Assembly: GCA_016286445.1 (NCBI GenBank)
Contig: JAEESS010000008.1
Location: 1-60,649, forward strand
DNA: 60,649 bases
Source of the DNA: Bacillota bacterium
GTDB taxonomy: Bacteria > Bacillota > Clostridia > Christensenellales > CAG-138
Direction of reading: 5' to 3'
In this document: positions 8,377-50,475 of the stretch, one piece after another
Layout of the letters: each line of letters opens with the position of its first letter
Numbering within the stretch: position 1 is the first letter of the stretch
Notes under the pieces: generated by a model
Database searches by the model: none
Told to the model about the DNA's origin: nothing
The model's input: the letters and a program-made list of their open reading frames with translations, nothing else
Translations under genes and position numbers: made by a program

Positions 8377-8385
8377 GCATATTGT

Positions 8386-9519: not shown

Positions 9520-9585
9520 TCCGCGCACCTCCGTTCCTTCTCCGATAACCCTATTATTATGACACAATTCTCCATAAAATGCAAC

Positions 9586-9629: not shown

Positions 9630-9648
9630 TTCGTCGTAAAAGACCTTC

Positions 9649-31762: not shown

Positions 31763-32932
31763 TTATTCGTCCTTGCCGTAGAGCACCTGGCGAAGCAGAA
31801 TGCGGTTCTTTTCAAACGTGGGCAGCAGCGCGTACGCGCCGTCGACGTTGAGTTCGGTATAGGAATCGTCGAACGGCAGCCGGTGCGTCGCAAACGTCAA
31901 TTCCCCTGCGACCGCCATCTCATAGCCGACGCTGCGCAGCGTTTCAAAATCGACGTTGGAGCGGATGCTCCTGAAGATCGTGACAAAGAACGGATAGAGA
32001 AACTCGCTGCTGAATTGATCCTTCAAATACAGGAACGCGTCGTGCACGATCTCCACCTGCCGGTCCGCGCGTCCGAGATCGCCCTTGTTGTCCGAGGTGC
32101 GGTCAAGAAGCAGTGCAACGATCTCCTTTCCGGAAAGCTGCTGTTTGCCCGCTTTCAGCGAGCCGCCGCAGATCTCGTTGAGATACGCAGCCTCCTGCTT
32201 ACTGAGATCCGCCGGAATGCCGTTGACTCCGTCCGCAAGCGCGGCAAGCTCGTCCGTACCGGTGACGACGTAGTTTTGAATATCGAGTTCAAAAACGTCG
32301 TTGAGCGTGTTGATCAGCAGACCGATCCCGCCGCGCGCGTATGCGGTATTGACGCGCTTCCATTCATCCTCCGAAAGCGGCACGAGCATATCCCTTGCGA
32401 CGGAAACGACCGTAAACTTCTGCTGCAGCTGGTTATACGTCGCAAGAAAGATCATGTCCGTCTGCCGTTCTTCGGACTTGATCGAGCCGTTCTGCACCAC
32501 GATGATCATGGAGAAGATGAAGCGGTCGATCTTTTTCTGTTCGTAGATCGGGACTTCCTTGATCTCGCCGGTCTCGTAATAGTCGACGTCGCCGCGCATC
32601 GCTTCGCCGAACAGCTCCGCGTCCGGCGTCGGAAGCGCATTCACGTCGATCGGCTTGTAGGTGCGCCGCACGGTTTGCACCCCGCAGGAGATCAGATGAA
32701 ACCCGCGGCTGTCGCAGGAGAAGAACCGCGTTTCGCGGCACATCTCCACCTTGGTCATGCCGAGCACGATCCCGAGCACGGCAAGCAGCGCAAACGCAAT
32801 GCACAGCGCAAAGAACGCGATCCGAAGCTTACGATGCGGCTTTCCGGTCGGTACCGGCTGCACGTCGGCAGTCGTTTCGGACTGCGGCGCTTCGGGCTTT
32901 TCCGGGTTCTGAAGCAGATCCTTTTCTTCCAT
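31763..32932 (-). CDS. LytR-CpsA-Psr (LCP) family glycopolymer ligase
   Basis: 389 residues. A ~35-residue cytoplasmic Pro/Glu-rich tail and one membrane helix (~36-58, IAFFALCIAFALLAVLGIVL) place the rest outside. The LCP domain has the usual Arg/Asp set: RQTDMIFLATYN, VVSVARDMLVPL, KRVNTAYARGG, the GG-turn region DGVNGIPADLS, and LLLDRTSDNKGDLGRADRQ. LCP enzymes transfer wall glycopolymers from undecaprenyl diphosphate to peptidoglycan. Its location directly after a surface glycopolymer region fits that role. It shares a transcript with the 35-residue peptide and the phosphodiester glycosidase. Confidence 0.9.
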   Translation of the reverse strand: MEEKDLLQNPEKPEAPQSETTADVQPVPTGKPHRKLRIAFFALCIAFALLAVLGIVLGMTKVEMCRETRFFSCDSRGFHLISCGVQTVRRTYKPIDVNALPTPDAELFGEAMRGDVDYYETGEIKEVPIYEQKKIDRFIFSMIIVVQNGSIKSEERQTDMIFLATYNQLQQKFTVVSVARDMLVPLSEDEWKRVNTAYARGGIGLLINTLNDVFELDIQNYVVTGTDELAALADGVNGIPADLSKQEAAYLNEICGGSLKAGKQQLSGKEIVALLLDRTSDNKGDLGRADRQVEIVHDAFLYLKDQFSSEFLYPFFVTIFRSIRSNVDFETLRSVGYEMAVAGELTFATHRLPFDDSYTELNVDGAYALLPTFEKNRILLRQVLYGKDE

Positions 32933-32943
32933 CCCGCGCCTCC

Positions 32944-33051
32944 TTACAGTGCGATCAGCGCAATGTCAACGGCGAGCATAACAAGCGTCAGCACCGCCAT
33001 CACGGCGATGCCGACGATCCAGCCCGTTTTTCCAAAGGCATGTTTTTTCAC
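32944..33051 (-). CDS. 35-residue single-helix membrane peptide
   Basis: A tiny frame starting with GTG 33051: a basic N-terminus (MKKHAFGKTGW) followed by one long hydrophobic helix ending at the C-terminus (VLTLVMLAVDIALIAL). GGAG sits eight bases before the GTG and overlaps the end of the glycosidase gene, whose stop is 4 bases upstream, so translation is probably coupled. The LCP gene begins 11 bases after its stop, with GGAGG after this stop serving as its ribosome site. Such size and position suggest a helper of the membrane-bound neighbours. No family is recognised. Confidence 0.6.
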   Translation of the reverse strand: MKKHAFGKTGWIVGIAVMAVLTLVMLAVDIALIAL

Positions 33052-33054
33052 GGT

Positions 33055-34179
33055 TTATTCTCCATATACTTTGTTCGGCGTCACCTGCGACAACTCCGGC
33101 GCGTTGCCGTCGGCGTCATATTCCGCAAACGCCATAAGGTCCTTGATGTTGCGGCCGTCCACCAAGTCGCCATCGCCGTCCTTGAATTGTGCGGGGACGT
33201 TGATCGTCTTTCCCATGAACACCATCGCCGTGCTGTATCCGCCGTCAAGGTTCATTGCGTCCGTACAGCCGAGCGAAAGCATCAGCTCCGCCATCTCCTG
33301 CTCGGTCATGCCGATGGACTTCTTGGTTCTGCCGTCGACCGCGACCGCAATATAGTGTCCCGGCTCGCAGTAGCCGAAGATGATGCGCGGCTGGCGTGTG
33401 TAATTCCCGAGCTTGTTCTGGATCTCGCCGTTCTGCACGAGCACCGGTCCGAACTGCAGCGCGTGCCATATGCCGCCGTGCTGCTTGTTTTCTTTCTCGT
33501 AGTTGTAGTTTTCCTTCTTTGCGCGGTTGATAAGCTTTGCGGAACCGTCCTTATAGATGATCAGAATGCCCATGCGGAACATGCTGTTGCTCTTTTCCAC
33601 ATTCTTTTTTACGACCGTGCCGTTGTGGATGACAAGTCCGCTGTTATAGCTGCCGGAAAAGCCGAGGATCGCGTGCTCGCGCTGCGCAAACTGTTCGGGA
33701 TCCTCCGGACCGGAATTGAACTTGCCGTGCCCGAAGCCCATGCGGAAGCTGTTGATGTTCCGGATCCAGATATCCGCAACGTAATAGACGATGCTGTCTT
33801 CTTCGTTCTCCTCCCGCTTGATCGCGATGCGCAGCTCGTCGCTCTGATAGCTCCAGTCCGCATCCGCTCCGGTATCGTGGTCCGGGAAGCGACCGGTGGA
33901 AACGTCTCCCTCAATCGGCGGACGCGTTGCAAACGGCGTCGGCTCGGGTGTGGACTCCGGCGTTTCGACTGTCTCCGTCGCCTGCGGCGTCTCGGGGATC
34001 GCCGTAAATACCTGCGTGTCCGTCGATACAGCGACGACCGTTTCCTCTGCGTTGTCTTCAAAAGGCGTTTGGGTTTCGACGTTCGGGTCCGTTTCGCTTT
34101 GGAAGCATCCGAACATGCCGATCAGCATCAGGACGCCGAGCCCGATGCAGAGCAGTTTTGAACAATATCGTTTCATCAT
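33055..34179 (-). CDS. Phosphodiester glycosidase (NAGPA/DUF2233) lipoprotein
   Basis: 374 residues from ATG 34179, with GGAAAGGA upstream. A signal sequence ends in the lipobox IGMFGC, so the protein should be tethered outside the membrane. A long Thr/Glu/Pro-rich linker follows. The C-terminal ~230 residues are an NAGPA domain (RMGFGHGKFNSGPED, GFSGSYNSGLVIHNG, LQFGPVLVQNGE, and the hallmark GCTDAMNLDGGYSTAMVF). This fold removes GlcNAc from phosphodiesters in eukaryotic NAGPA and acts on surface glycans in bacteria. With an LCP ligase in the same operon, trimming or remodelling of a phosphate-containing wall polymer is likely, though not proven. Confidence 0.87.
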   Translation of the reverse strand: MMKRYCSKLLCIGLGVLMLIGMFGCFQSETDPNVETQTPFEDNAEETVVAVSTDTQVFTAIPETPQATETVETPESTPEPTPFATRPPIEGDVSTGRFPDHDTGADADWSYQSDELRIAIKREENEEDSIVYYVADIWIRNINSFRMGFGHGKFNSGPEDPEQFAQREHAILGFSGSYNSGLVIHNGTVVKKNVEKSNSMFRMGILIIYKDGSAKLINRAKKENYNYEKENKQHGGIWHALQFGPVLVQNGEIQNKLGNYTRQPRIIFGYCEPGHYIAVAVDGRTKKSIGMTEQEMAELMLSLGCTDAMNLDGGYSTAMVFMGKTINVPAQFKDGDGDLVDGRNIKDLMAFAEYDADGNAPELSQVTPNKVYGE

Positions 34180-34293
34180 GTGTAATTCCTTTCCGTGTTT
34201 CCGCACGACCGCTCCTCTCGGCTAAGCCGGGCGTCCTGCGAACACCTTTTTATGGAACGGGCATACTTGCCCCGTCTATATCTTGCCTTTTAT

Positions 34294-34409: not shown

Positions 34410-35561
34410 TTATGACCGTTTTACCAGGCGTTTCAGCCCATGCACCGCTTTCCGAAGCGGCGCGATGCGGTACAGGCGTTTTTTGATCGATTCCGTTAAC
34501 AGCCCGCGCCGGTAAAAATCGACCGTCTTTTTGAACAGAAATCTCCGCTCCCCCGGACGCTTCGACGTGCCTGCGCCCGCGACGCGGTCGAACCGCTTCT
34601 GCATTTCTGCGTCGACTGTTTTGTACTTCGGACTGCGTGAAAACGCGGAAAGCTCGATCCGAAGCCCGTCGGAAAGCGGCATCAGCTCGGACTGGCGCAT
34701 GCCTGTCGCCGTGAGGATCTTTGTGTTGTCGATCACACGTTCCAGCATGCGGTCATACTTGATCTGCCACGGACGCCCGACGACGTTCCGGTACGTTTCG
34801 AGCGGCACGATCCTCACCCGCATGCCGAGAATGCGCCGATACAGATTCAGCACCTCGCCCCAGGCATGATGCTCCGCCGTCGCCGCGGTATACGTTTCGC
34901 CGTACGCCGCTTCGTTCAGCACGAGCCGCGCGATCATTCTGCCGACGTCGCCCGCCCAGGTCATCGTCGCCTGCTTATGCAGCATCTCCTTCGGGAAGAT
35001 GACCGTCTTGCGGTTCAGCGCGCGGACCAAAAACTCGTTTGCCTCCATTGTGCCGAGCTGGAACCGGTCGCCGCCGTAAGTGATCGCGGGACGGATGATC
35101 GTGAAATTCCGTCGTCCGCTCGCTCTCAGAATATCCTCCTGCCGCGCCTTCGTGAGACCGTATTCGTCGGTTTTCAGATACTCCGGATCGTTGACGCTGT
35201 CCAGAAGCCGCGGGCTTTGTTCGGTGATCGGATTTTTGCCGTTGTCGCCGTATACGCGGTACGAGGACAGGAAAAGATAATGGGTCGTGCTTGAAAGCAG
35301 CTTTTCACAGCGCGCCGCAAACGATTCGGTCGTATAGATCATGAAATCGACGATCGCGTCGAACCGCTCCGAAAGAAGCTCGTCCAAAAAAGCTTCGTCC
35401 TTTGCGTTGCCCTGCAGATACACAAGCCCGCGCTCGTTCGACGCGTGCGCCGAACGGCTCGTGATGTATACCTCGAAGCCTTCCCGCAGAAGCGCCGGAT
35501 ACAGCGCTTCGCCGATCGTGCCCGTTCCCCCGAGCAGCAGGATCCGTTTCCGTTCTTCCAT
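34410..35561 (-). CDS. NAD-dependent epimerase/dehydratase (extended SDR)
   Basis: 383 residues. The Rossmann start ILLLGGTGTIGEAL binds NAD(P). The catalytic region reads 'LFLSSYRVYGD' with YGLTKARQE giving the YxxxK pair. Inferred role: modification of a nucleotide sugar or sugar residue of the surface glycan. It is the last gene of the long operon. A GTG at 35570 overlaps the previous stop (GTGA) and could be the start instead of ATG 35561, adding three residues. The C-terminal ~90 residues are basic and go beyond the usual SDR length; they may contact membrane lipids or a partner. Confidence 0.87.
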   Translation of the reverse strand: MEERKRILLLGGTGTIGEALYPALLREGFEVYITSRSAHASNERGLVYLQGNAKDEAFLDELLSERFDAIVDFMIYTTESFAARCEKLLSSTTHYLFLSSYRVYGDNGKNPITEQSPRLLDSVNDPEYLKTDEYGLTKARQEDILRASGRRNFTIIRPAITYGGDRFQLGTMEANEFLVRALNRKTVIFPKEMLHKQATMTWAGDVGRMIARLVLNEAAYGETYTAATAEHHAWGEVLNLYRRILGMRVRIVPLETYRNVVGRPWQIKYDRMLERVIDNTKILTATGMRQSELMPLSDGLRIELSAFSRSPKYKTVDAEMQKRFDRVAGAGTSKRPGERRFLFKKTVDFYRRGLLTESIKKRLYRIAPLRKAVHGLKRLVKRS

Positions 35562-35566
35562 AGGCG

Positions 35567-38527
35567 TCACCGGACCGTGCGGTTGAACGCGCGCATATTC
35601 TTCAGCGCCGTCTTTTCGTCCTCGACGTCGGTGAAGACCTCGAATACGACAGGCTTCTGGAACGCTTCGGGATCGCAGAAGCGCGCGATCTGTTCGTCAA
35701 ACGCGTCCTTTGCCGCAGCGGTCATGTAAGCAAAGCCCATCGACTCCGCCCACGCCTTTGCGCTGCCGAAATGTCCGTGCGCTGCGATGAGATCGTCGGT
35801 GTCGGAACCCCAAAGCCGTTCAAGGCTCGCATTCAGACGGAACTCCGCGCCGCGCGCGTTGTTGATCAGCAGGATGCGGAGGTTGTTTCCGACGTGCCGG
35901 TTGCCGAGCGCGTTCATGTCATAGAAGAACGCAAGATCGCCGATCAGCGCGAACGACAGCCGTTTGGGATCGGAAAGCGCCTGTCCGAGCGCCGTGGAGA
36001 CCGCGCCGTCGATGCCGAAGCCGCCGACGTTGCAGCTGACGGTGACGCTCGGATCGAGGCTGAAGAAGTTCATGCTGCGCAGCGAGTTCAGAATCCCGAG
36101 ATGCAGATAGCTGTTCTTCGGCAGCAGCGCGGAAAGCTTCGACGCCGCATAGATATTGGACAGCGGCAGCACGGGCGCTTCCACCTTCGGCAGCAGACCC
36201 CGGATGAGTCCGTAATAGTCCGTATTCGTGCGCGCCGCGCTGAGCGTGCGGAAGAAGAACCGCTCCGAGCAGAAGAAGAGTTTTTCGACGATTTCCGCGC
36301 CGTGACGGTTGTGGAATTTGCGATCCTCCGAGATGCGCCATACGCGTCTTCCGCGGAACAGGCGGCTTGCGCTGTAATCGCCGGACACCGAGCCCATGTC
36401 GATCACGAGATCCGGAAGCTCACTGAGCTCCGCAAGATCGCCTGCGACAGCGCTCAGCACGCGGTTTGTGCCGGTATAGTTCGCGGTATGGTCGCAGAAC
36501 ACCGCCGCGCCGCAGTTTTCCGCAAACGCCTCGATCGCCGCTTTCGTTTCCGCGTCAAAGGGCTTGTGCGCGCCGATAAACAGCGCGATCCGCTTTTTTT
36601 GAAGATCCGCGATCAGCGCGTCCGCAGGGAAATCCTCGGCGTCGTATACGTCGATCTTCTGCACGTCCGGAAGCTTCGGCGTTTTGAACGAATAGAGATT
36701 GCCGACCGGCAGATTGATGTGCACCGGACCGGCGTCGTGCCGCGTTGCGGTATACAGCGCTTCGTTGACGAGCTGGACGCAGGTCCTGAAATCCTCGTCG
36801 TCCTTGATGAGCGGCAGGATCGCCGCAAACCGCTTGACGTCGTTCTGCGAAACGGTGCGATCCGTCATCTGCGGCATGAAATCGCTGTAGCACGGCGAAT
36901 GGTGCTGCGAGGTGATCGCGATCACCGGAAGGTTCCGGTAATACGCCTCGGTAAGCCCGGGGATGTAATCGCGCGAGGCGGTCGCGCCGGTGCAAGAGAT
37001 CGCGACCGGCTCGCCGGATGCGAACGCCAGTCCGCCCGCAAGGTACGCCGCGCCGCGCTCGTCGACCGCGGAGTATACCTCGAAGAACGGATCGAGCTGT
37101 ACCGCGCGCGAGATCGGCACGTTCGTCGTACCGGGCGAAACCACGATCTTCCGGATGTTGTATTGCTTCAGAAGCGCAAGCACGACCTGCGCGTTTTTGT
37201 CGTCGGTATACATCGGTTTTCCCTTCTGCGCCGCTTCGATCTGCGCGCGCACCGGAACGGACGCGGGCTTTGCCGCCGCCGGTTTTGCCTTTGTTTCGGG
37301 GACGAATGCGGGCTGTTCCTTCGGCAGATCCTTTTCGGAAAGGAACGCCGGCTTCTCTGTTCCGCCGCAGCAGTATCTGAGGTAGCGCACGGACTCCGCG
37401 CGAAGCGTTTCCAGCGCGGCGTCTGTGTTCGTCCAGTCGACCGGACGCCCGATGATTCCGCCGATCTCGCCGGTCTCGTCGGTATAGCGGTCCGAAAGTC
37501 CGAGCTTATCGAGAAGCTCCGAAACGCGGTTGCCCGTCTCCTTGTGCAGGATCGTCGCGAAACGTTTATGATACAGCACGGAGAAGACCGTGCCGTGGAA
37601 CGAGTTCGTCAGAACGTATTCGGCGTTCCTGATATACCAGATGAACTCCTCCGGCGAGCAGACCCGATGATCCTTGATCCGGCAGTTTTCCGCGTTCGGA
37701 TTGCCGTTGACGTCAATTAGGTGCAGTCCCGTCTGACGTTCCAGAAGCTTTGCCGCTTCGTTGACCTGCTTCTGCGCAGGACCCGGCATCGTATAGACCG
37801 CGATGAACGGACGCTTTTCGAGCGGCTCCTTCGGCAGCAGGGCGTCGTACGCCGCGGCGTCCAGCAGCAGCGTCGGGTCGACGTCGATGTGCATCGGCGT
37901 CTTCGGGTCCGCCGCCTGCATGACGGGACGCAGGAACTTTGCTTCGCGAAGCGAGACCGCGTTGAGCTTTTTGAGCATCGGCGCGATCGTCTTCTTTGCC
38001 GCTTCCGGATCGGCGAAGAATGTGCCGACCGCATAGGTCGCGCGGCGGACGTCCTTTTTCCCGAAATCCAAAAAGTATGCGGGATCGTATACGCCGTCCG
38101 TCAGCTTGCTGTTCCAGAGCTGATCGCTGCCGGAAAGGTACAGATCGCATTTCGGCGGATGCGCGCGAAGCTGTCCGATCGTACGGTAAATGCGCGTCTC
38201 CTTGAGATGCGCCTTGCGGAACGCCTTGAACTTCTGCTCGCGCGGGAGCTTCACCTTGGCGTTTTTCCACGAGTGCACCGTGTCGTAAAAACCCTTGGCG
38301 CCGTGATAGGTGCGGGTCAGGATGTTGCGCGCCGGCTCGCGGAACTTTTTGCCGCCGTAATAGATCGGATTCTTGTGCGCGGCGTACCGGTTCCAGTGAT
38401 ACCACGGAACGTAATTGATGACCTCCGCCTCGTTTCCGAGCGATTCAAGCTTGCTTTGCAGCGCCCAGCACTGCAGCGCCGCGCCGCAGTTGAACGGAAA
38501 ATGAAATGTTACGATTCCGACCTTCAT
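35567..38527 (-). CDS. Fusion protein: polysaccharide pyruvyl transferase + MenD-like thiamine-diphosphate enzyme
   Basis: 986 residues. ATG 38527 overlaps the preceding stop (ATGA). Residues 1-385 form a polysaccharide pyruvyl transferase domain (GIVTFHFPFNCGAALQCWAL, LSGSDQLWNS, TNSFHGTVFSVLYHKRF), which normally uses PEP to put pyruvyl ketals on sugars. An Ala/Pro/Lys-rich linker covers ~390-440. Residues ~440-986 are a complete ThDP enzyme resembling MenD: VVSPGTTNVPI, the conserved Glu490 in AVDERGAAYLAGGLA, and the cofactor motif GDLAFFYDMNALG near 862. No menaquinone genes are near, so menaquinone synthesis is unlikely. The surroundings point to a pyruvate- or 2-oxoacid-derived decoration of the surface glycan. 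I know of no described enzyme with this combination; the reaction is open. Confidence 0.85.
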   Translation of the reverse strand: MKVGIVTFHFPFNCGAALQCWALQSKLESLGNEAEVINYVPWYHWNRYAAHKNPIYYGGKKFREPARNILTRTYHGAKGFYDTVHSWKNAKVKLPREQKFKAFRKAHLKETRIYRTIGQLRAHPPKCDLYLSGSDQLWNSKLTDGVYDPAYFLDFGKKDVRRATYAVGTFFADPEAAKKTIAPMLKKLNAVSLREAKFLRPVMQAADPKTPMHIDVDPTLLLDAAAYDALLPKEPLEKRPFIAVYTMPGPAQKQVNEAAKLLERQTGLHLIDVNGNPNAENCRIKDHRVCSPEEFIWYIRNAEYVLTNSFHGTVFSVLYHKRFATILHKETGNRVSELLDKLGLSDRYTDETGEIGGIIGRPVDWTNTDAALETLRAESVRYLRYCCGGTEKPAFLSEKDLPKEQPAFVPETKAKPAAAKPASVPVRAQIEAAQKGKPMYTDDKNAQVVLALLKQYNIRKIVVSPGTTNVPISRAVQLDPFFEVYSAVDERGAAYLAGGLAFASGEPVAISCTGATASRDYIPGLTEAYYRNLPVIAITSQHHSPCYSDFMPQMTDRTVSQNDVKRFAAILPLIKDDEDFRTCVQLVNEALYTATRHDAGPVHINLPVGNLYSFKTPKLPDVQKIDVYDAEDFPADALIADLQKKRIALFIGAHKPFDAETKAAIEAFAENCGAAVFCDHTANYTGTNRVLSAVAGDLAELSELPDLVIDMGSVSGDYSASRLFRGRRVWRISEDRKFHNRHGAEIVEKLFFCSERFFFRTLSAARTNTDYYGLIRGLLPKVEAPVLPLSNIYAASKLSALLPKNSYLHLGILNSLRSMNFFSLDPSVTVSCNVGGFGIDGAVSTALGQALSDPKRLSFALIGDLAFFYDMNALGNRHVGNNLRILLINNARGAEFRLNASLERLWGSDTDDLIAAHGHFGSAKAWAESMGFAYMTAAAKDAFDEQIARFCDPEAFQKPVVFEVFTDVEDEKTALKNMRAFNRTVR

Positions 38528-39612
38528 CTTTTCACCATTCTTTTGATTTTTCTTTTCAGTCTGTTCACGACCCGCTTGACCTTGTAGAACAGGGCGAACG
38601 CCTTGTCCTTTACCTTCCACGACCGCATGACGCGATCGAGCTTCACGGGATCCTTCGCCTTGATTGCGGCGCAGATGCGGTTCGTAAAGCCGGACCGGGA
38701 TTTCTTTTCAAACGTGACCGCGTCGATCACTTCCGGGAACTCCATCAGCTTTCCGTATTCCGCGATCTTCTCCTCCTGGCTGAGATCGGCGTAAAGGATC
38801 TTTTTACAGGTATTCTTCACGACGGTGAAGAAGATATTCTTCAGCTTCGGCAAATACTGTTCGAGTCCGTTTTCCTTCATCAGCCCGCAGCGCCGGTCGT
38901 ATCCGTTGACCAGGAACCGGAACGTGTCCTTGCGGTAGCCCTTCGACAGCGATTCCTCCTGCTGCCGGTAACGGTACATCACCGCGCCCATCGCCGCGAT
39001 CGTGCTGACGTGCTTCAGATAGTCCGTGACAAAGACGCAGTCCTCCTCATAGGAGATCGCCGGATCGAACCGGATCCCGTACTCGCGGATGATCCGCATC
39101 GGATACAGCTTCGCCCAGATGGAGACGCCGAACATGTTCGTCTTCGGCACCGTGTACAGCATCAGAAACTGCTGCAGATCGCGGAACATTCCGACATAAA
39201 AATGCGTCAGCTGAAAATGCTTTACCCAGTCTTCGTTGAACCGGTCGAACCCGCAGATCACGAGATCCGTGCCGTATAGGTCCTCGACCCGGACCATGTC
39301 CTCAAAGTAATTCGGCAGAACGACGTCGTCCGCGTCGATGAACATCAGATATTTGCCCGAAGCTTTTTCGATGCCGTCGTTTCTCGCGTTCGATACGCCG
39401 CCGTTCTCCTTATGAATGACAATAAAGCGCGGATCCTGCTCTGCCGCTTCGTCACAGATGCGTCCGCTGCCGTCCTTTGACCCGTCGTCTACAAGGATCA
39501 CTTCCCATTCCGTAAAGGTCTGTTCTCTGATCGAATCCAGACACTCCGGCAAATGCTGCTCCGCATTATAAACCGGGATCACGACGCTCAGGATCGGTGT
39601 TTTCTGCTCCAT
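38524..39612 (-). CDS. Family 2 glycosyltransferase
   Basis: 362 residues. GT-A fold start VVIPVYNAEQHLPECLDSI, nucleotide-binding VDDGSKDGS, NGGVSNARNDGI, and the metal-binding DxD region FIDADDVVLP. The C-terminal ~150 residues are helical and basic, typical of wall-polysaccharide GT2 enzymes. Acts in the cytoplasm or at the membrane face on a lipid-linked acceptor. Its stop overlaps the start of the fusion gene. Confidence 0.92.
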   Translation of the reverse strand: MEQKTPILSVVIPVYNAEQHLPECLDSIREQTFTEWEVILVDDGSKDGSGRICDEAAEQDPRFIVIHKENGGVSNARNDGIEKASGKYLMFIDADDVVLPNYFEDMVRVEDLYGTDLVICGFDRFNEDWVKHFQLTHFYVGMFRDLQQFLMLYTVPKTNMFGVSIWAKLYPMRIIREYGIRFDPAISYEEDCVFVTDYLKHVSTIAAMGAVMYRYRQQEESLSKGYRKDTFRFLVNGYDRRCGLMKENGLEQYLPKLKNIFFTVVKNTCKKILYADLSQEEKIAEYGKLMEFPEVIDAVTFEKKSRSGFTNRICAAIKAKDPVKLDRVMRSWKVKDKAFALFYKVKRVVNRLKRKIKRMVKR

Positions 39613-39639: not shown

Positions 39640-40419
39640 TTATTTGGTATTGGTAAGACCGAGCTCTCGCTCATATGATTCATAGACAATGTCCGGCCGA
39701 TCGATCATTCTGACATGTCCGTGATCCAGCCAGACCGCATTCTTGCAGAGCTCGATGACCGGCGCCTTTGCATGCGAAACAAACAGCAGCGTCGTTCCGT
39801 TGTCCAAAAGCGTCTTGATGCGCGCGCGGCATTTTTCCTGAAATGCCGCGTCGCCGACTGCAAGCACCTCGTCGATGATCAGAATGTCCGGATCGACGAT
39901 CGTGGCGACCGCAAAGCCGAGACGCGCGCGCATGCCGCTCGAATAATTCTTGATCGGCAGATCCATGAAATTCCAAAGCTCCGCGAACTCGACGATCTTT
40001 TCGTACTGCTCCTTCATGAACTTGCGGCTGTGACCCAGGACCGCGCCGTTGATGAAGATGTTTTCCTGTGCCGTGAGATTGGGATCAAAGCCCGCGCCGA
40101 GCTCAATCATCGGCGCGATGCTGCCGCTGACCCGCACCGAGCCCTTATACGGCGCGAGGATCCCGCAGATCAGCTTCAAAAGCGTGCTTTTGCCCGCGCC
40201 GTTCGTGCCGATCAGCGCCCACGACTCGCCCTGGTTGATCGTCAGATTGACGTCGGTCAGGGCATAAAACTCCTTGAAGCGCAGCTCGCGCTTCACAAGC
40301 TTGATAAAGTATTCCTTGAGGTTGTCCAGCTTTTCGCCGGCGATGTTGAACCGGACCGAAGCGTTCTTGATCTCGATGCAGGGCTGTCCCTGTTTTATTA
40401 GCTTTCCCAATTGTTCCAT
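39640..40419 (-). CDS. ABC exporter ATPase, TagH/Wzt type
   Basis: 259 residues. Walker A GTNGAGKST, Q-loop region, signature YSSGMRARLGFAVAT, Walker B ILIIDEVLAVGD and the switch His (FVSHAKAPV) are present. The long first part before Walker A and the GSIAPMIELGAGFDPNLTAQEN block are typical of teichoic-acid and O-antigen exporters. It lacks the extra C-terminal carbohydrate-binding domain of long Wzt proteins. The start is ambiguous: ATG 40419 or TTG 40425 next to the permease stop. No clear ribosome site, so coupling to the permease is likely. Confidence 0.92.
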   Translation of the reverse strand: MEQLGKLIKQGQPCIEIKNASVRFNIAGEKLDNLKEYFIKLVKRELRFKEFYALTDVNLTINQGESWALIGTNGAGKSTLLKLICGILAPYKGSVRVSGSIAPMIELGAGFDPNLTAQENIFINGAVLGHSRKFMKEQYEKIVEFAELWNFMDLPIKNYSSGMRARLGFAVATIVDPDILIIDEVLAVGDAAFQEKCRARIKTLLDNGTTLLFVSHAKAPVIELCKNAVWLDHGHVRMIDRPDIVYESYERELGLTNTK

Positions 40420-40425
40420 AGGCAA

Positions 40426-41271
40426 TTAAATATACAGGATGAATTTGTTCTTGGTCGCCTTGAACGTCAGTGTGCCCGCAATCAGGAACACCACCGCCAC
40501 CGCCGCGCCGCGCCACATGAGCTCCGGCGTCGGGACCTCCCATGCGTCCGCGTTCTGTAAGATGAAGTAGCGGAACTGCTGGATATACATATACATCGGA
40601 TTGAACCTGCGGATGAACAGTCCGATCGCGTCCGCGGCAAGGTTTTTGTTCGGCTCGTTGTCATTATAAAAGCTGCCGAGCGAATAGAAGATCGGCGTCA
40701 GGTACATCCACGCGAGCGTAATGACGCCCCAGATGTTTTTGATGTCCCGGAAGAACACGGTCGCCGCCGCAAGCAGCATGCCGAGCCCGACGCAGAACGC
40801 GTACAGCTCGATGATCGGAATGAAGATCAGCAGATTGCACCAACGGAACGGAACCTTTGTCGCGATCATCACGATCACCAGCGCGCCGAGCGAGAGCACG
40901 AAATTGACCATGCTGCTCGTGACCTTGGAAAGCGTGAAGATATACTTCGGTACGTTCGCCTTTTTGAGCAGCGACGCGCTTTCGATGACCGACGTCATCG
41001 CCTTGTTCGTCGCTTCACGCATGAACGAGAAGAGAATGTTGCCGCAGATCAGATACACCGGGAAATTCTCGATCTTGCGCTTGAACATTGTCGAGAACAC
41101 GATGACCATGACCAGCATCGACAGAAGCGGGTTCAGCACGCTCCAAAGATACCCCAAAAAGCTTCTGCGGTATTTCAGCTTGATGTCCCGCTGCACAAGC
41201 AAGACCAAAAGGTCCCAGTATGTGAGGAACCTTGTGACCCAGCCCTTCAGTGTCTTTACGATTTTTTGCAT
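40426..41271 (-). CDS. ABC-2 type exporter permease, TagG/Wzm type
   Basis: 281 residues with six hydrophobic segments. The N-terminus (DLLVLLVQRDIKLKYRRSFLGYLWSVLNPLLSM) is the signature of polysaccharide/teichoic-acid export permeases. It forms the channel with the ATPase encoded next. The gene overlaps the glycerophosphotransferase gene by 16 bases. Confidence 0.93.
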   Translation of the reverse strand: MQKIVKTLKGWVTRFLTYWDLLVLLVQRDIKLKYRRSFLGYLWSVLNPLLSMLVMVIVFSTMFKRKIENFPVYLICGNILFSFMREATNKAMTSVIESASLLKKANVPKYIFTLSKVTSSMVNFVLSLGALVIVMIATKVPFRWCNLLIFIPIIELYAFCVGLGMLLAAATVFFRDIKNIWGVITLAWMYLTPIFYSLGSFYNDNEPNKNLAADAIGLFIRRFNPMYMYIQQFRYFILQNADAWEVPTPELMWRGAAVAVVFLIAGTLTFKATKNKFILYI

Positions 41272-42464
41272 TGTTGTTTCACCATCTCCCTGATCGCTTC
41301 GGTCGTCCGTTCCGAGCTTTGATCGTCCCTAAGCGTAAAGAACCGGTCGACCCTTTCCCCATATTCCGCCGCCATGCGGCAATCGTTTTCGATCACGCCG
41401 GAAAGCGCGCCGATCGCATCTGGAACGGTTTCGGCGATCGGACCGAACCCGTCCCGTTCAAAATCGAAATATCCGCTCGGCAGATGCCCCTCGCGGAACG
41501 CCTCATGGTCGAACTGAAAACAGACGACCGGTTTCTTCATAAACGCAAAATCCATATGCACGCTCGAATAGTCGGTCACGAGCACCGCCGCTTTTTTCAG
41601 CAGCTCCGGCACGGAAACCTCGTTCCAGCGTTTGATCTCGATCCGGTCCGACGCCGCCTTGAAGCAAGTCTCGAAACGCGACATGTTGCGATGCACGCAG
41701 AAGATCGCGCGCTTGCCGGTCCTTTTGAGCAGCGCGTCGAGCGCGGGATCGCTCAAAAACGCGTTCCAGCTCCGGTAATACACGCTTTCGGAAAACGCCG
41801 CGTCCGTTCTGCACGCGCGTTCGAGCCACATCCGCCACGTCGGCAGGATCAGCACGAGCGACGGATCGGGCTCTGCGCCGAGCAGATCGTCGAATCGGCA
41901 GAAGCCCGTATACCGCACGACCCCGTCCGGATAACCGAACGTATCGCGGATGAACTCATACTCCGGCTTTGCCGCGCAGCAGAACAGGCTCAGCCTTGCG
42001 TTTTCCGCATGCAGAAACGGCAGATCGTTCATCGTCACGCCGTGCTGCAGAAACACGCGGCGGTTTTTGAGCCAGCCGAGCACGACCTCCAAAAGATAGC
42101 ACACCGGCGCGTTCGGCTTGCCGCCCTTCTGACTCGAAATGTTGACCTCGGCGGCAAGGTAGTATATCCAGTGCCGAAGACTTCCGAACGGAACGACGGG
42201 ACCGATCGCCGCGACCGTTTCGTACGCCGGAGAGCGGCGATGGATCGCATAGACCGCGTCGATCTCCGGATGCCGCGCGCGTAAATGCCGGAACAGCGCG
42301 AATGCGTTGTCCTGCGCCTCCATGGCGTATTCGCACAGCAGCCACAGATGCTTTCGCTTTCTTTTATAGATCGCCGCAGGCAGCAGCGCCAAAAGAAACA
42401 GAAAGAAATGACCGACGTCCCCGATGCGCACGCGTCTGAGCTTTGCAAGGATCGATTCCTTCAC
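41256..42464 (-). CDS. CDP-glycerol glycerophosphotransferase (TagF/TagB-like)
   Basis: 402 residues from GTG 42464, whose GTGA overlaps the stop of the upstream GT2 gene and which has AGGAGG at ideal distance. N-terminal hydrophobic helix (HFFLFLLALLPAAIY). Conserved C-terminal domain with FLQHGVTMNDLPFLH and VLVTDYSSVHMDFAFMKKPVVCF, the core of poly(glycerol-phosphate) polymerases/primases. It should transfer glycerol phosphate from CDP-glycerol to the lipid-linked glycan. No CDP-glycerol synthase (TagD) is in the window, so the donor must come from elsewhere. A single short TagF suggests a limited number of units or a repeating sugar-GroP polymer. Confidence 0.9.
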   Translation of the reverse strand: MKESILAKLRRVRIGDVGHFFLFLLALLPAAIYKRKRKHLWLLCEYAMEAQDNAFALFRHLRARHPEIDAVYAIHRRSPAYETVAAIGPVVPFGSLRHWIYYLAAEVNISSQKGGKPNAPVCYLLEVVLGWLKNRRVFLQHGVTMNDLPFLHAENARLSLFCCAAKPEYEFIRDTFGYPDGVVRYTGFCRFDDLLGAEPDPSLVLILPTWRMWLERACRTDAAFSESVYYRSWNAFLSDPALDALLKRTGKRAIFCVHRNMSRFETCFKAASDRIEIKRWNEVSVPELLKKAAVLVTDYSSVHMDFAFMKKPVVCFQFDHEAFREGHLPSGYFDFERDGFGPIAETVPDAIGALSGVIENDCRMAAEYGERVDRFFTLRDDQSSERTTEAIREMVKQQCKKS

Positions 42465-43210
42465 AGCCAGTACCTCCTGACGCCGTGCAGAAGATAGCCC
42501 GCAAAGCAGAGGATCCGTCTGAACGGTCCGATCCCGAGACAGCGGTAGGTGTTCCACATCATGCCGGCGGAACGGACCTTGCTGCCGGTCTTTGAGCTCT
42601 TTGTGACGCGATAGCGCGCAAGCGGCTCGTCGATCCCGACCGCCTTTGCGCCGTCCTTTAAGATCCGGTACCAGCTGATCACGTCCTCGTGCAGATGGCT
42701 GTGCTCCATCGGATGCCGTTCATAGACCGTGCGCTGCACGAGAACCGTGCTGGTCACGATATCGTTTCCGGACAAAAGCCGGTTCGCCGTCACCGTTTCC
42801 GGCGCGTGGAAAATCTTTCCGGTCGGTTCGCCGCGTTCATCGATGCAGACCGCCGCCGTAAAGACGAGCGCCGCTCCGGTCTTTTCCATCACCGCAAGCT
42901 GCCGATCGAGCTTGTCCGGCTCCCAAAGATCGTCGCTGTCCAAAAACGCGATCCGTTCCGCACGCGCGTCGTTGACACCGCAGTTTCGCGCGTTTGCCAC
43001 GCCTCCGTTTTTCAAAAGCGTGATCACCCGGACGCGCGCGTCTTCCTTCTGAAGCCGCGCAAGGATCTCCGGCGTGCCGTCGTCGGACCCGTCGTCGACC
43101 GCGATCACTTCGATGTCCCGCACCGTTTGCCGAAGCGCGGATCGGATGCTTTCCTCCGCCGTTTTTTCGCACCGATATGCCGGTATAACGACGCTGACGC
43201 GCGGGCTCAT
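42461..43210 (-). CDS. Family 2 glycosyltransferase
   Basis: 249 residues: SVVIPAYRCEKTAEESIRSA, AVDDGSDDGT, NGGVANARNCGV, AFLDSDDLWEPDKL. A compact GT2 enzyme with the usual DxD-like site and a hydrophobic C-terminus. Overlaps the epimerase gene by ATGA upstream and the glycerophosphotransferase gene by GTGA downstream. Confidence 0.92.
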   Translation of the reverse strand: MSPRVSVVIPAYRCEKTAEESIRSALRQTVRDIEVIAVDDGSDDGTPEILARLQKEDARVRVITLLKNGGVANARNCGVNDARAERIAFLDSDDLWEPDKLDRQLAVMEKTGAALVFTAAVCIDERGEPTGKIFHAPETVTANRLLSGNDIVTSTVLVQRTVYERHPMEHSHLHEDVISWYRILKDGAKAVGIDEPLARYRVTKSSKTGSKVRSAGMMWNTYRCLGIGPFRRILCFAGYLLHGVRRYWL

Positions 43211-44028
43211 TGCGGTTCCTCCTCTTTGTTCGGCAGCGGAAGCTCCCGAAGGTCCTCATACACAAGGTCCCCGAACGCCTTCCTGCCGACGTGCGTGCAC
43301 GCGCGTAAGGCACGGATCGCGGGATTGAATAGCCCGGAACGCTTCGGCGTTCGTCCCTGCTCTTCCATGGCGCGCGCAATCAGCGTGCGCGTTGCGATCG
43401 GCTCCGGCTCCTGCGGAAAAAAGACGCCAGCGCGCGGCGTGTCAATGAGCCGACGCACCGTATCGCACAGCGTATCGATCGAAACCATGCTGCGGCGGTT
43501 CTCAAAATCGGGGCAGAACGGCAGACGCTTTGCAAGCCGCCTGAGCCTTTCCGGATTGCCCTTTGCGCCGGGACCGAACACCATCGGCGGACGCAGGATC
43601 GAAACGAGAAACGTTTCGTCCGAAAGCGCGGCGATGCGCCGTTCCGCTTCAAACTTCGAGCGTCCGTACTGCGTGACGGGCTTCGGGATCGTATCCTTTG
43701 TGATCGTGCCCGTCTCCATGCCATATACGCTCATCGTGCTGAAAAACACAAACTGCTTTACGCCGCCGCGCTTTGCCGCCTTTGCGAGCGCTTCGGTCAG
43801 ATCGCGGTTGACGCGCATATACAGCGCTTCCGTTTCGCGCGTTTCCTTTTGATGCACGATCGCCGCGGTATGCACGACTGCGTCAAAGCCTTTCCAATCG
43901 AGCGTCTCCGGAAGACCGTTCCGCAGCGAGACCGTTTCCGCAGCGTACCGCTCCGGCGTTCTGTTCAGCGCGTCGCAAAGCGACGAAGCGATCCAGCCGT
44001 GTTCGCCTGTGATCAGGATCCGCTTCAT
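43207..44028 (-). CDS. NAD-dependent sugar epimerase/dehydratase
   Basis: 273 residues from ATG 44028, which overlaps the sugar-transferase stop (ATGA). Rossmann motif LITGEHGWIASSL, catalytic Ser region FFSTMSVYG and YGRSKFEAE (YxxxK). It resembles the epimerases found beside priming sugar transferases, where they make or modify the first sugar. The exact nucleotide sugar is not evident. Confidence 0.88.
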   Translation of the reverse strand: MKRILITGEHGWIASSLCDALNRTPERYAAETVSLRNGLPETLDWKGFDAVVHTAAIVHQKETRETEALYMRVNRDLTEALAKAAKRGGVKQFVFFSTMSVYGMETGTITKDTIPKPVTQYGRSKFEAERRIAALSDETFLVSILRPPMVFGPGAKGNPERLRRLAKRLPFCPDFENRRSMVSIDTLCDTVRRLIDTPRAGVFFPQEPEPIATRTLIARAMEEQGRTPKRSGLFNPAIRALRACTHVGRKAFGDLVYEDLRELPLPNKEEEPQ

Positions 44029-44636
44029 TTCCGGTTCTCTTGCCTGTCCTCGCGCTTGCCTTCGCTGAAGCCCTTGCGCGTGATGACCGTGGAAACCGTT
44101 TTCCAGATGCACTTCATGTCCATTCCGAAGGTCACATGCGCGGCATATTCGCCGTCGTAACGCGCCTTCTCCTCCACCGACAGCGAGTCGCGCCCGTTGA
44201 CCTGCGCCCAGCCGGTCAGTCCGGGAAGAACGTCGTTTGCGCCGTTCTTATCGCGCTCGGCAATGAGATCGTACTGGTTCCAGAGCGCGGGCCGCGGTCC
44301 CACGAACGACATCTTGCCGGTAAAGATCTGCAGAAGCTGGGGAAGCTCATCCAGGCTTGCTTTTCTCAAAAACCGTCCCGACCGCGTGATCCAGTGATGC
44401 GAATCGGAAAACATATGCGTCGGAACGTTGTTCGGCGCGTCCTTTCGCATGGTGCGGAACTTCAGAATCTCAAATTCCGTTTTATGGATGCCGATCCGCG
44501 TTTGCCGGAACAGCACGGGACCCTCGGAATCCAGCTTGATCCAGACCGCGATCACCGCCAATAACGGAGAAAGCGTCAGGATCGCGAGACCCGACAGCAC
44601 GATATCCAGTATTCGTTTCCAATATTTTTGATACAT
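44025..44636 (-). CDS. Undecaprenyl-phosphate sugar phosphotransferase (priming enzyme)
   Basis: 203 residues from ATG 44636 (GGAG upstream). One hydrophobic re-entrant helix near residues 8-32 (ILDIVLSGLAILTLSPLLAVIAVWI), then the catalytic block FRQTRIGIHKTEFEILKFRTM, LRKASLDELPQLLQIFTGKMSFVGPRP and GLTGWAQVNGRD. This is the small monotopic sugar-transferase family that starts a glycan on undecaprenyl phosphate at the inner face of the membrane. It is the first gene of the glycopolymer operon. Confidence 0.94.
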   Translation of the reverse strand: MYQKYWKRILDIVLSGLAILTLSPLLAVIAVWIKLDSEGPVLFRQTRIGIHKTEFEILKFRTMRKDAPNNVPTHMFSDSHHWITRSGRFLRKASLDELPQLLQIFTGKMSFVGPRPALWNQYDLIAERDKNGANDVLPGLTGWAQVNGRDSLSVEEKARYDGEYAAHVTFGMDMKCIWKTVSTVITRKGFSEGKREDRQENRK

Positions 44637-44713
44637 TTCCGCTCCGTTCTTGCCCGATTGCAAAATTTGTCGAACCGAAAGGTACACCACTGCGATGATA
44701 TTACGTTAACCGT

Positions 44714-45068: not shown

Positions 45069-45151
45069 CATTTTCCCGCGGCGGGTGCCGCGATCATTTC
45101 ACACTGCGGCAGGCGCCGCAAATGTTCATCATTTTTATAAGGAGGATTCTC

Positions 45152-46393
45152 ATGAGCGAACTCAAACGTACCCTACTGTATGACGCGCACGTCGCTGCCG
45201 GCGCAACGATGGTCGACTTCGGCGGCTGGGAAATGCCGATCCAGTATCCGGAAGGCATCATTGCGGAACATCTGTATACCAGAAGCTGCTGCGGTCTTTT
45301 CGACGTATCCCATATGGGCCGTCTCATCATCGAAGGACCGGAGCGTCTCGCGTTTTTGCAGCATGTGCTTTCGAGCAACGCAGCGCTGCTCGGCGTCAAT
45401 CAGGCGCAGTACTGCATCATTCCCGCGGAGGACGGCAGCGCCGTCGACGACGCGTACCTCTACCGCTTCGAGGAGGACCGGTTCCTGCTCGTCGTCAACG
45501 CGTCGAACACCGATAAGGACCTCGCGTGGTTTGCGCCGATCGTCAAGAACTACGACTGCACGATCAAAAACATCACGAACGAAACGGTCTCCATCGCGGT
45601 GCAGGGTCCGAAGAGCGAAGAGATCCTGAAGACGCTCGCGGGCGTCGACGAAGTCACCAAGCCCGCGCGCAACAATCTCAGCACGCTGATGATGGAAGGA
45701 CACGAGGTCCTCGTCTCCCGGACGGGCTATACGGCGGAGCCGATCGGCTACGAGCTGTTCTTAAAGAACGAAGACGCGCACTGGATGTGGAACCGTCTCA
45801 TCGAGCTCGGCGGCAAGCCCGCAGGGCTGGGCGCGCGCGACACGCTCCGCATGGAAGGCATGCTCCCGCTGTACGGCGACGAAATGGGCGTCGACGAAGA
45901 GGGCAAGCCCATGCCGATCTTTGCGCTGGCGCTTGCGAAGTTCGCGGTCTCGTTCGACGAGGCGAAGGGCGACTTTGTCGGCCGTGAAGCGCTTAAAAAG
46001 CAGGCGGCTGCGCAGGCTTGCTTCAAAGCGAAGGACTACAATCCCGAAGCGATGGCGACGCTCAGTAAGCGCGTCCGCCCGATCGCGCTCCTCGATCGCG
46101 GCGTCATCCGTCACGGCATGGAGGTATACCGCAACGGCGAGATGATCGGCTGGGTCACCAGCGGCACGATGATCCCGTACTATCAGACCTCCGGCGAAGG
46201 CGCCGACGTCAAACTGCTTCCCGAAACCGGCAAGCGCGCGATCGGCATCTGCTACATCAAGTCCGACGTTCCGGTGAACGGCGAAGTCGAGGTCGACGTC
46301 CGCGGCAAGCGCCTCAGAGCCGTCATTCCCTCGAAGCACATCTCCAACAATGTCCCGCCCTATGTGGTGCCGGTCATTTATAAACAAAAATAA
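45152..46393 (+). CDS. gcvT: Glycine cleavage system T protein (aminomethyltransferase)
   Basis: 413 residues from ATG 45152, behind AAGGAGG; upstream in-frame codons belong to the leader. Takes the aminomethyl group from lipoyl-GcvH and gives methylene-THF plus ammonia. Seen: MVDFGGWEMPIQYPEGIIAEH, CGLFDVSHMGRL, the folate-binding Asp region SRTGYTAEPIGYELFL, GLGARDTLRMEGMLPLYG and the C-terminal beta-barrel. First gene of the gcv operon and direct target of the riboswitch. Confidence 0.97.
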   Translation: MSELKRTLLYDAHVAAGATMVDFGGWEMPIQYPEGIIAEHLYTRSCCGLFDVSHMGRLIIEGPERLAFLQHVLSSNAALLGVNQAQYCIIPAEDGSAVDDAYLYRFEEDRFLLVVNASNTDKDLAWFAPIVKNYDCTIKNITNETVSIAVQGPKSEEILKTLAGVDEVTKPARNNLSTLMMEGHEVLVSRTGYTAEPIGYELFLKNEDAHWMWNRLIELGGKPAGLGARDTLRMEGMLPLYGDEMGVDEEGKPMPIFALALAKFAVSFDEAKGDFVGREALKKQAAAQACFKAKDYNPEAMATLSKRVRPIALLDRGVIRHGMEVYRNGEMIGWVTSGTMIPYYQTSGEGADVKLLPETGKRAIGICYIKSDVPVNGEVEVDVRGKRLRAVIPSKHISNNVPPYVVPVIYKQK

Positions 46394-46411
46394 TTTCAGG
46401 AGGATAGAATC

Positions 46412-46786
46412 ATGACAATCAAACCCGAATTGCAGTACAGCAAGGACCACGAGTGGGTCAAAAAGGAAGACGACCTCTTCGTCATCGGCATCTCCGATTT
46501 TGCGCAGGACGCGCTCGGCGATCTCGTGTTTGTGAACCTGCCGGAAGTCGGCGACGCGGTCACCGCGGGTGAAGCGTTCGGCGACGTCGAATCCGTCAAG
46601 GCGGTCAGCGATCTGCTCTGTCCGGTCTCCGGCACCGTTGCCGAGATCAACGAGGAGCTCCTCGACGCGCCCGAAAAGCTCAACGAGGATCCGTACGGCG
46701 CGTGGATCATCAAGGTTTCCGACGTCACCGCAACCGAAGAGCTTCTGGACGCAGCGGCGTACGAAGCATTCATCGCGGAGGCATAA
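46412..46786 (+). CDS. gcvH: Glycine cleavage system H protein
   Basis: 124 residues. The lipoyl carrier shuttling the aminomethyl group between GcvP, GcvT and E3. Lipoylation site Lys63 in GDVESVKAVSD; typical start 'YSKDHEWVK' and end 'PYGAWIIKV'. It lies 18 bases behind gcvT, and 3 bases separate it from gcvPA. Lipoate is probably attached by the LplA encoded downstream. Confidence 0.97.
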   Translation: MTIKPELQYSKDHEWVKKEDDLFVIGISDFAQDALGDLVFVNLPEVGDAVTAGEAFGDVESVKAVSDLLCPVSGTVAEINEELLDAPEKLNEDPYGAWIIKVSDVTATEELLDAAAYEAFIAEA

Positions 46787-46789
46787 CGC

Positions 46790-48103
46790 ATGGGAAGCTA
46801 CGTTCCTTCCACCGAGGAACAGCGCCGGGAAATGCTCAAAGCGATCGGGCTTTCGGATTACCGTGAGCTCTATCGCGACGTGCCGGAAAACATGATCTTA
46901 AACCGTCCGCTCGATCTGCCCGAAGGCAAGAGCGAGATGGAAGTGCGCAATGCGATGGCAGAGCTCGCGGCGAAGAACACGGTCTATAAGACCGTGCTTC
47001 GCGGCGCAGGCGCATACGATCATTACATTCCGTCGATCGTGAAGTATATCCCCGCAAAGGAAGAGTTCCTCACCGCGTATACGCCCTATCAGGCGGAGAT
47101 AAGCCAGGGCGTTTTACAGTCGATCTTCGAGTATCAGACGATGATCGCGGAGCTGACCGGCATGGACGCAAGCAACGCGTCCGTGTACGACGGCGCGACC
47201 GCGGCTGCCGAAGCCGCCGCCATGTGCCGCGACCGCAAGCGCCGCGTCACGCTGATCTCGGCGACGACGCATCCGGACGTGATCAACACGGTCCGCACCT
47301 ACTGCTACGGCACCAACGACGAGCTTCTGGTCGTTCCGATGAAGGACGGCAAGACCGACATCGAGGCGCTCCGTACCATGCTGAACGACGGCGTCGCTTC
47401 GTTCTATGTACAGCAGCCGAACTTCTACGGCGTCTTTGAGGACGCGGAAGCTTTGGGCGAGCTTGTGCATGCGGCGGGCGCGATGTTTGTGATGGGCTGC
47501 AATCCGATCGCGCTTGCGATCATGAAAACGCCGAAGGATTGCGGCGCGGACGTTGCGGTCGGCGAAGGGCAGCCGCTGGGCATGCCGATCGGCTTCGGCG
47601 GTCCGTACCTCGGCTTTATGGCGACGACCATGAAGCACATCCGCAAGCTCCCCGGCCGCATCGTGGGCGAGACGACCGATCACGACGGCAACCGCGCGTA
47701 CGTCCTGTCCCTGCAGGCGCGCGAGCAGCACATCCGCCGCGAAAAGGCGAGCTCCAACATCTGCTCGAACGAAGCGCTGTGCGCGCTGACCGCGGGTCTG
47801 TATATGGCGACGATGGGTCCCGACGGCATGGCGGAGGCGGCAAAGCAGTGCATGGCAAAGGCGCATTATCTTGAAAAAGCGCTCACCGCGATCCCCGGCG
47901 TACGTCTGCGCTACGACGCGCCGTTCTTCCACGAGTTCCTGCTCGACATGCCGAAGTGCAAAGAGATCGAACAGGCGCTTGCCCAAAAGGGCATCCTCTC
48001 CGGACTTCCCATAGAGTCCGGCATGCTCTGGTGCGTCACCGAAAAGGTCAGTAAGGCGACGCTCGACGAGGTCGTTTCCGTGGTCAAGGAGGTGCTCGCA
48101 TGA
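46790..48103 (+). CDS. gcvPA: Glycine decarboxylase subunit 1
   Basis: 437 residues, matching the N-terminal half of single-chain GcvP. Motifs: YVPSTEEQRREML, GAGAYDHYIPSIV, FTAYTPYQAEISQG-like block (FLTAYTPYQAEISQG), and GGPYLGFMATTMKHIRKLPGRIVG. The split into two chains is the usual form in Firmicutes and archaea. Its last bases overlap the gcvPB start (ATGA), giving coupled, equimolar synthesis. Confidence 0.96.
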   Translation: MGSYVPSTEEQRREMLKAIGLSDYRELYRDVPENMILNRPLDLPEGKSEMEVRNAMAELAAKNTVYKTVLRGAGAYDHYIPSIVKYIPAKEEFLTAYTPYQAEISQGVLQSIFEYQTMIAELTGMDASNASVYDGATAAAEAAAMCRDRKRRVTLISATTHPDVINTVRTYCYGTNDELLVVPMKDGKTDIEALRTMLNDGVASFYVQQPNFYGVFEDAEALGELVHAAGAMFVMGCNPIALAIMKTPKDCGADVAVGEGQPLGMPIGFGGPYLGFMATTMKHIRKLPGRIVGETTDHDGNRAYVLSLQAREQHIRREKASSNICSNEALCALTAGLYMATMGPDGMAEAAKQCMAKAHYLEKALTAIPGVRLRYDAPFFHEFLLDMPKCKEIEQALAQKGILSGLPIESGMLWCVTEKVSKATLDEVVSVVKEVLA

Positions 48104-50474: not shown

Positions 50475-50475
50475 T

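Follow-up and report, generated by a model that had tools for sequence, protein, structure and literature searches.

Sections of PMC12247030 and PMC4753412 describe thiamine diphosphate (ThDP) carboligases that, together with a ketoreductase, branch the sugars yersiniose and paulomycose. Polysaccharide pyruvyl transferases (PVTs) of family PF04230, such as CsaB and Pvg1, form ketals in the cases treated in parts of PMC10435577 and PMC6801904. MenD (SEPHCHC synthase) carries out a Stetter-like addition to isochorismate, as part of PMC2914249 sets out. We analyzed a window of 60,649 nucleotides (contig JAEESS010000008.1, from a Bacillota bacterium of the Christensenellales) in which one gene joins a PF04230 domain to a MenD-like enzyme. 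The original prediction, made from the sequence alone, described a single frame linking a PVT to a MenD-like ThDP enzyme in a wall-glycopolymer operon, and that frame is indeed open on the minus strand and carries both Pfam domains. We found that the PVT~ThDP fusion belongs to a co-inherited module of three genes and four domains, the others being a family 2 glycosyltransferase (GT2a) and an extended short-chain dehydrogenase/reductase (SDRx), in a cluster with an ABC exporter.

Read from its ATG, the minus-strand frame has no internal stop, whereas an in-frame stop is present in the plus-strand reading of 35567-38527. The longest minus-strand open reading frame (ORF) over the fusion begins further 5', with a GTG at 38620. 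Pfam recognized PS_pyruv_trans at residues 13-327 (E 2.7e-27) and TPP_enzyme_N at residues 446-548 (E 2.1e-18), and the predicted Ala/Pro/Lys linker lies between the halves. The same domain pair, sought in other genomes, occurs in one frame at eleven further loci. With the window, all 12 of the 12 fusions compared are open; a stop or frameshift between the halves, named beforehand as grounds for rejecting the prediction, was seen in none. For four pairs of these genes, dN/dS came to 0.14-0.25 in the PVT half and 0.12-0.23 in the ThDP half. Linker length varied from 40 to 57 aa across the 12 fusions, and mean identity to the window was 39% in the linker versus 73% and 82% in the halves. Since the halves are under constraint, the linker is not and every frame is open, the fusion is real, and we ruled out a sequencing or frame artefact as its origin.

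A structure model of the whole fusion had a mean predicted local distance difference test score (pLDDT) of 80.6 and a predicted template modeling score of 0.56, with a disordered linker (pLDDT below 50 at residues 406-424 and 427-429). All 50 of the fold matches listed were MenD, and none of those 50 was a PVT. Root-mean-square deviations of 17.5-19.4 Å and low query template modeling (TM) scores (0.25-0.32) mean that the placing of the domains in this model is not to be trusted. Its PVT half was built from fusion rows alone, which left residues 1-170 poor.

The best NCBIfam model for the ThDP half was menD (TIGR00173), spanning residues 445-851, with the runner-up at 47 bits. It gave 153.6 bits on the fusion, 155.5 on the ThDP half and 156.3 in the genome search, all short of the curated cut-off of 244.2. 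Acetolactate synthase models, which we take to be YerE's side of the superfamily, reached at most 47 bits on the ThDP half versus 154 for menD; the separation from YerE is by family models only. The closest PDB sequence was S. aureus MenD (7tin, E 4.5e-31 in phmmer). In a quick maximum-likelihood tree of 93 rows, run without bootstrap and with long outgroup branches flagged, the 81 cassette rows formed a single clade (SH-aLRT 99) beside Bacteroidota MenD (92), their sister group, and outside the nine MenD references. A place for the ThDP half among true MenD, the other outcome offered in advance against the prediction, is not what the tree gave. The family spans taxa under some 13 phylum labels, some of them represented by metagenome-assembled genomes (MAGs). 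Two matches lay on plasmids, one of them annotated menD, and E. coli genomes held no DNA match to the Celerinatantimonas ThDP gene.

Residue by residue, the ThDP half shares with MenD the fold, the catalytic Glu, the Asp/Asn metal ligands, Gln118 and Arg395. The AVDERG (Glu490) and GDL...NN (Asp864, Asn890) motifs are present as predicted. E55, Q118, D442 and N469 in E. coli MenD numbering, which cover the catalytic Glu and GDx...N metal site of the superfamily, are each conserved in 81/81 rows. The arginine corresponding to R395 contacts both substrates in B. subtilis MenD, where R413 is one of two arginines binding 2-oxoglutarate and R33 and R107 lie on the isochorismate side (part of PMC2914249). 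R413 is lost in all 81 family rows, and R33 and R107 in most, being kept in a nine-row clade (L058, L077-L084) and a few others. The window has T468, H542 and V834 at R33, R107 and R413, respectively. It has also lost K292/R293, of which one alignment pairs R293 and another K292 with the same Tyr. At the I474 position, which neighbors the thiazolium, all 81 family rows have Glu and all nine MenD rows have Ile; sections of PMC3534367 give this site (standard position 476) as mostly Met or Ile across the superfamily. The donor pocket is therefore altered, as is the acceptor pocket in most rows. Judging from tree and alignment, the ThDP half descends from MenD and has lost MenD's substrate residues. 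Unlike MenD, the family is encoded in glycan clusters that also contain an oxidoreductase.

A search of genome contigs, for which the entire fusion served as the query, yielded 105 relatives, and we kept the best 80. Neighbors were assigned by profiles at E 0.01 on mechanically called ORFs, and many of the loci are from MAGs; two of them (L025 and L027), of nearly the same type as Marinobacter loci, are possibly mis-binned. An oxidoreductase lies at most two genes from the ThDP gene in 70/80 loci, and a PVT does so in 62/80, so that the ThDP gene's more constant partner is an NAD(P) oxidoreductase rather than the PVT. The original prediction recognized the fusion but overlooked this partner, SDRx in the window. 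Its further suggestion, that a single protein makes or attaches a pyruvate-derived group, gains no support from these counts or from the confinement of the PVT~ThDP fusion to one clade of 12 rows in the ThDP tree. The nearest oxidoreductase within four genes was SDRx in 39 loci, one kind of classical short-chain dehydrogenase/reductase (SDR) in 20, a second kind in 9 and an aldo-keto reductase (AKR) in 3.

With strict labels, a PVT was at most one gene away from the ThDP gene in 46/80 cases, from GT2 in 33/107, from GT4 in 9/77, from the WZX flippase in 6/39 and from epimerases in 1/44. The corresponding counts for a reductase were 61/80 (76%) for the ThDP gene, 3/107, 4/77, 28/39 and 0/44. 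We set aside chance neighborhood on these one-gene counts, in which the controls (GT2, GT4, WZX and the epimerases) fall below the ThDP gene, apart from WZX in its closeness to reductases. Tree distances of ThDP and SDRx agreed with r 0.78 (n 30), or 0.54 (n 23) once the Marinobacter-type clade was removed. Agreement with the ThDP tree was 0.16 and 0.21 for the GT2 control, and 0.36 for one classical SDR.

Fusions elsewhere draw on the same parts. SDRx~PVT occurs in L015-L018, SDR3~PVT in L042, and AKR~ThDP in L056 (8972-12109) and L070 (8072-11221), the last two with N-terminal extensions of 365-375 aa. The extension in L056 is an AKR with a 4Fe-4S domain; that in L070 was assigned by its tree place beside L056 and its length only. 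At L060 (3-5489), in a Kiritimatiellia MAG, a single frame of 1828 aa reads GT2~SDRx~ThDP~PVT. The window's GT2a, fusion and SDRx, which overlap by 4 nt at both joints, amount to the same four domains as this one protein. GT2a adjoins the fusion in 11/11 fusion loci, counting L009, where the gene is present but hidden by another ORF in the gene table. Separately, L084 (5106-8561) has three consecutive ThDP-family ORFs (588, 279 and 323 aa), perhaps a broken duplicate.

Among close relatives of the window, SDRx and the ThDP gene are also present or missing together. Of 41 genomes, 12 gave matches to both and none to just one of the two; these 12 are among the 23 genomes of the genus (Fisher p 7e-7 for the genus, treating genomes as independent, which they are not). 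The ThDP-gene frames in those 12 genus genomes are 984-1286 codons long; at least three of the 12 are source genomes of fusion loci, so the two sets overlap. In the order at large, 3/151 genomes have the ThDP gene, and two of these frames, at 595-598 codons, are unfused. One genome without SDRx and the ThDP gene has a wall-polymer cluster (L145) that lacks just GT2a, the fusion and SDRx. It retains eight genes, namely the initiating transferase, epimerase, GT2b, glycerophosphotransferase, both exporter genes, NAGPA and LCP. This comparison covers one genome and a 20 kb stretch with differing flanks. The same stretch encodes, at 7860-10649 on the plus strand, a 929 aa protein with a YidC-type 60KD_IMP domain and a sulfatase-type domain, beside another glycerophosphotransferase-family gene.

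The PVT half scored 96.8 bits with PF04230, above the gathering cut-off of 25.3. It has in common with CsaB and Pvg1 the Pfam family and the histidine that binds phosphoenolpyruvate (PEP; H311), and probably the conserved Arg194; both residues are present in 56/56 aligned rows. By itself it matched no PDB sequence at E 0.01, and the PVT family profile reached one PDB chain only, Pvg1 (5ax7, E 0.0013). Part of PMC10435577 lists Arg148, Arg306, His308 and Lys328 as PEP-site residues of CsaB. R194 and R334 of the PVT half were paired with Arg148 and Lys328 by spacing only. In the alignment to 5ax7, the His of the RxH motif of CsaB and Pvg1 is present, and the Arg is replaced by Ser309 in this TxSFHG subtype. 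SDRx retains YxxxK and GGTG, and its model (pLDDT 90.2) has the fold of nucleoside diphosphate (NDP)-sugar SDRs, including the GDP-heptose dehydrogenase Cj1427. It shares fold and YxxxK site with Cj1427 and UDP-GlcNAc 4-epimerase but differs in its low identity (18-19%, TM about 0.6), and it falls within no NCBIfam equivalog cut-off.

We tentatively favor the proposal that GT2a, the fusion and SDRx form a glycan-decorating module of the wall-glycopolymer cluster. We infer its activity, donor, acceptor, order of steps and continued PEP use by the PVT half as follows. GT2a would supply the sugar. The ThDP half, with its altered pocket, would decarboxylate a 2-oxo acid, which need not be pyruvate, and add the acyl carbanion to a carbonyl on the sugar or on a sugar-linked acceptor. 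SDRx would perform the matching ketone redox step, either reduction of the acyloin or prior oxidation of the sugar to a ketone acceptor; given its NDP-sugar SDR fold, it may equally supply the keto acceptor. The PVT half would then place PEP-derived pyruvate on the resulting diol. The carboligase-ketoreductase pairings of YerE-like enzymes and of AviB or Pau11-12 with Pau7 offer a possible working analogue (sections of PMC12247030 and PMC4753412).

The recurring parts probably build a sugar decoration new to the literature. If this chemistry is right, YerE-like enzymes would no longer be the only decarboxylase-family route to surface sugars that are C-branched or acyl-extended, and the module would provide a second. 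The descent and the combination are new; the folds and the logic of decoration are known. In the open-access literature, with subscription papers mostly outside the search, we found no report of a PVT paired with a MenD-like ThDP enzyme, nor of any enzyme in glycan clusters that derives from MenD. No word starting with "thiamine" or "fusion" occurs in the pyruvylation review PMC6801904. The fused proteins are ready handles for bench work.

Several observations weigh against this proposal. No reductase was recognized in six loci (L054, L058, L078, L079, L080 and L082), and in 3/80 the nearest one is 5-6 genes from the ThDP gene. The profile did not recognize a PVT in 9/80 loci and found it far off in one; PVT-like genes may have been overlooked at L029 and L034, where the start of an ORF resembles PVT. 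Because the query contained PVT, the PVT linkage figures were favored, which does not apply to those for reductases. Reductases lie as close to the WZX flippase as to the ThDP gene, because WZX-SDRx-ThDP-PVT-GT2 is a common gene order, and the WZX tree also agrees with that of ThDP (0.58; 0.26). Agreement between the ThDP and PVT trees is moderate (r 0.40; 0.39), and between SDRx and PVT it is 0.23. With Ser309 in place of the Arg beside the PEP histidine, the PVT half's own donor, and with it ketal formation from PEP, is not certain. Finally, RmlB, Gmd and RfbG make the usual NDP-4-keto-6-deoxy sugar acceptors. They were unmatched in the window genome (E 1e-80, 1e-60 and 1e-60, respectively; other dehydratases were not searched), which speaks against a plain copy of YerE, and in 8/27 cassette genomes altogether (the window genome, G024-G026 of the fusion clade and four more).

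That last result counts in favor of a different scheme, in which no C-C bond is made: the ThDP half would convert a 2-oxo acid to an aldehyde, the oxidoreductase would reduce this to an alcohol, and the resulting small hydroxy compound would be attached to the glycan by either the PVT-like half or a glycosyltransferase. We consider this possible, if unlikely. Any of four kinds of oxidoreductase (SDRx, two classical SDRs and AKRs) can fill the partner role. The invariant acidic residue at standard position 476 is one before the catalytic Glu 477 of pyruvate decarboxylase (section of PMC3534367). However, descent from MenD makes a carboligase more natural, the neighborhoods have no constant activating enzyme for a small hydroxy compound, and SDRx shows the fold of NDP-sugar SDRs.

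It is also doubtful that the two halves act on different sugars of one polymer and were joined for convenience of co-expression, an internal start adding a free ThDP subunit. This would fit the restriction of PVT~ThDP to one clade and the low agreement between the SDRx and PVT trees. The ATG of the old ThDP start is conserved in 10/12 fusions, and a stretch resembling a Shine-Dalgarno sequence, RGARRGGA, lies at the same upstream distance in 9/12, within the stretch of the gene that evolves fastest. The duplexes have modest energies, with that of the window (-4.6) inside the background (median -2.7, 5th percentile -6.5), which makes the internal start a lead rather than a result; production of a free ThDP subunit from it is possible. 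Independent fusions tie PVT to SDRx, to SDR3 or to all four domains, and the ThDP and PVT trees agree better than the GT2 control does; both count against a joining by convenience.

An improbable third alternative is a Stetter pathway anchored on the glycan. Here the PVT half would make an enolpyruvyl group, the ThDP half would add an acyl carbanion to it, and the oxidoreductase would reduce the ketone and fix the new stereocenter, giving a sugar with a C-C-extended acid. MenD's own reaction is of this kind, PVT is fused directly to ThDP and to SDRx, and a carboxylate could be held by the conserved Arg817. Such a pathway would take MenD chemistry beyond quinone synthesis for the first time, and it would account for three enzymes that travel and fuse together. 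The known PF04230 enzymes make ketals, though, and some loci keep the ThDP gene and a reductase without a PVT.

Lastly, it is extremely improbable that the fusion is a true MenD bearing a pyruvyl transferase: among NCBIfam models menD fits best, the fold matches listed are MenD and two cassette genes of the nine-row clade exceed the MenD cut-off, but the window gene scores 154-156 bits versus 244, has lost R33, R107, K292 and R413, and belongs to a clade outside MenD, and in its genome (81.7% complete) isochorismate synthase (TIGR00543) had no match at E 0.001, no other menD exceeded the cut-off and MenB was matched only below it. These are stronger grounds than the absence of neighboring menaquinone genes, on which MenD function had been called unlikely.

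A true MenD above the cut-off accompanies the cassette in 8/26 cassette genomes. Two further sequences above it (L094 and L095) are themselves cassette genes, from Bifidobacterium saguini and Eisenbergiella tayi (L058 2892-4676 and L082 11116-12888; 275 and 267 bits). These two cases counsel caution over the cut-off and argue against a sharp line within the nine-row clade. The results point to a ThDP subfamily that derives from MenD and resides in surface-glycan clusters; some of its members exceed the NCBI MenD cut-off, and menaquinone predictions from such matches would be wrong.

Table 1. Coordinates of the fusion gene, its parts and residues, and neighboring genes in the window.
Feature	Position	Strand	Basis or remark
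PVT~ThDP fusion gene	35567-38527	minus	986 aa from ATG at 38527, no internal stop
N-terminal half, PF04230 PVT, TxSFHG type, residues 1-390	37358..38527	minus	Pfam
Linker, residues 391-438	37214..37357	minus	Ala/Pro/Lys rich; fast evolving
C-terminal half, MenD-derived ThDP enzyme, residues 439-986 and stop	35567..37213	minus	sequence matches, tree
Candidate internal start of a free ThDP subunit, ATG at 37213, purine-rich stretch 14 nt upstream	37211..37227	minus	conservation
Glu490, catalytic ThDP glutamate (E. coli MenD E55)	37058..37060	minus	81/81 rows
Arg817 (E. coli MenD R395)	36077..36079	minus	kept in 80/81 rows
Glu895, at E. coli MenD I474 position, family signature	35843..35845	minus	alignment
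SDRx, extended SDR	34410..35570	minus	Pfam Epimerase E 5.3e-12; start overlaps fusion stop by 4 nt
GT2a, family 2 glycosyltransferase	38524..39612	minus	Pfam E 9.6e-42; stop overlaps fusion start by 4 nt
Remainder of wall-polymer operon: ABC exporter ATPase and permease, glycerophosphotransferase, GT2b, epimerase, initiating sugar transferase	39640..44690	minus	Pfam, NCBIfam
Phosphodiester glycosidase (NAGPA) and LCP family glycopolymer transferase	31763..34206	minus	Pfam, NCBIfam

Other genes of the window were recorded in passing. Beside the wall-polymer operon, on the opposite strand at 45122-51840, are genes for glycine cleavage T and P proteins, a lipoate ligase and a pyridine nucleotide-disulphide oxidoreductase. 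A TMEM164-family membrane protein is encoded at 25240-26019 (minus strand), and a repeat-type surface protein with DUF7507, DUF11 and MBG_2 domains at 58446-60638 (minus strand).

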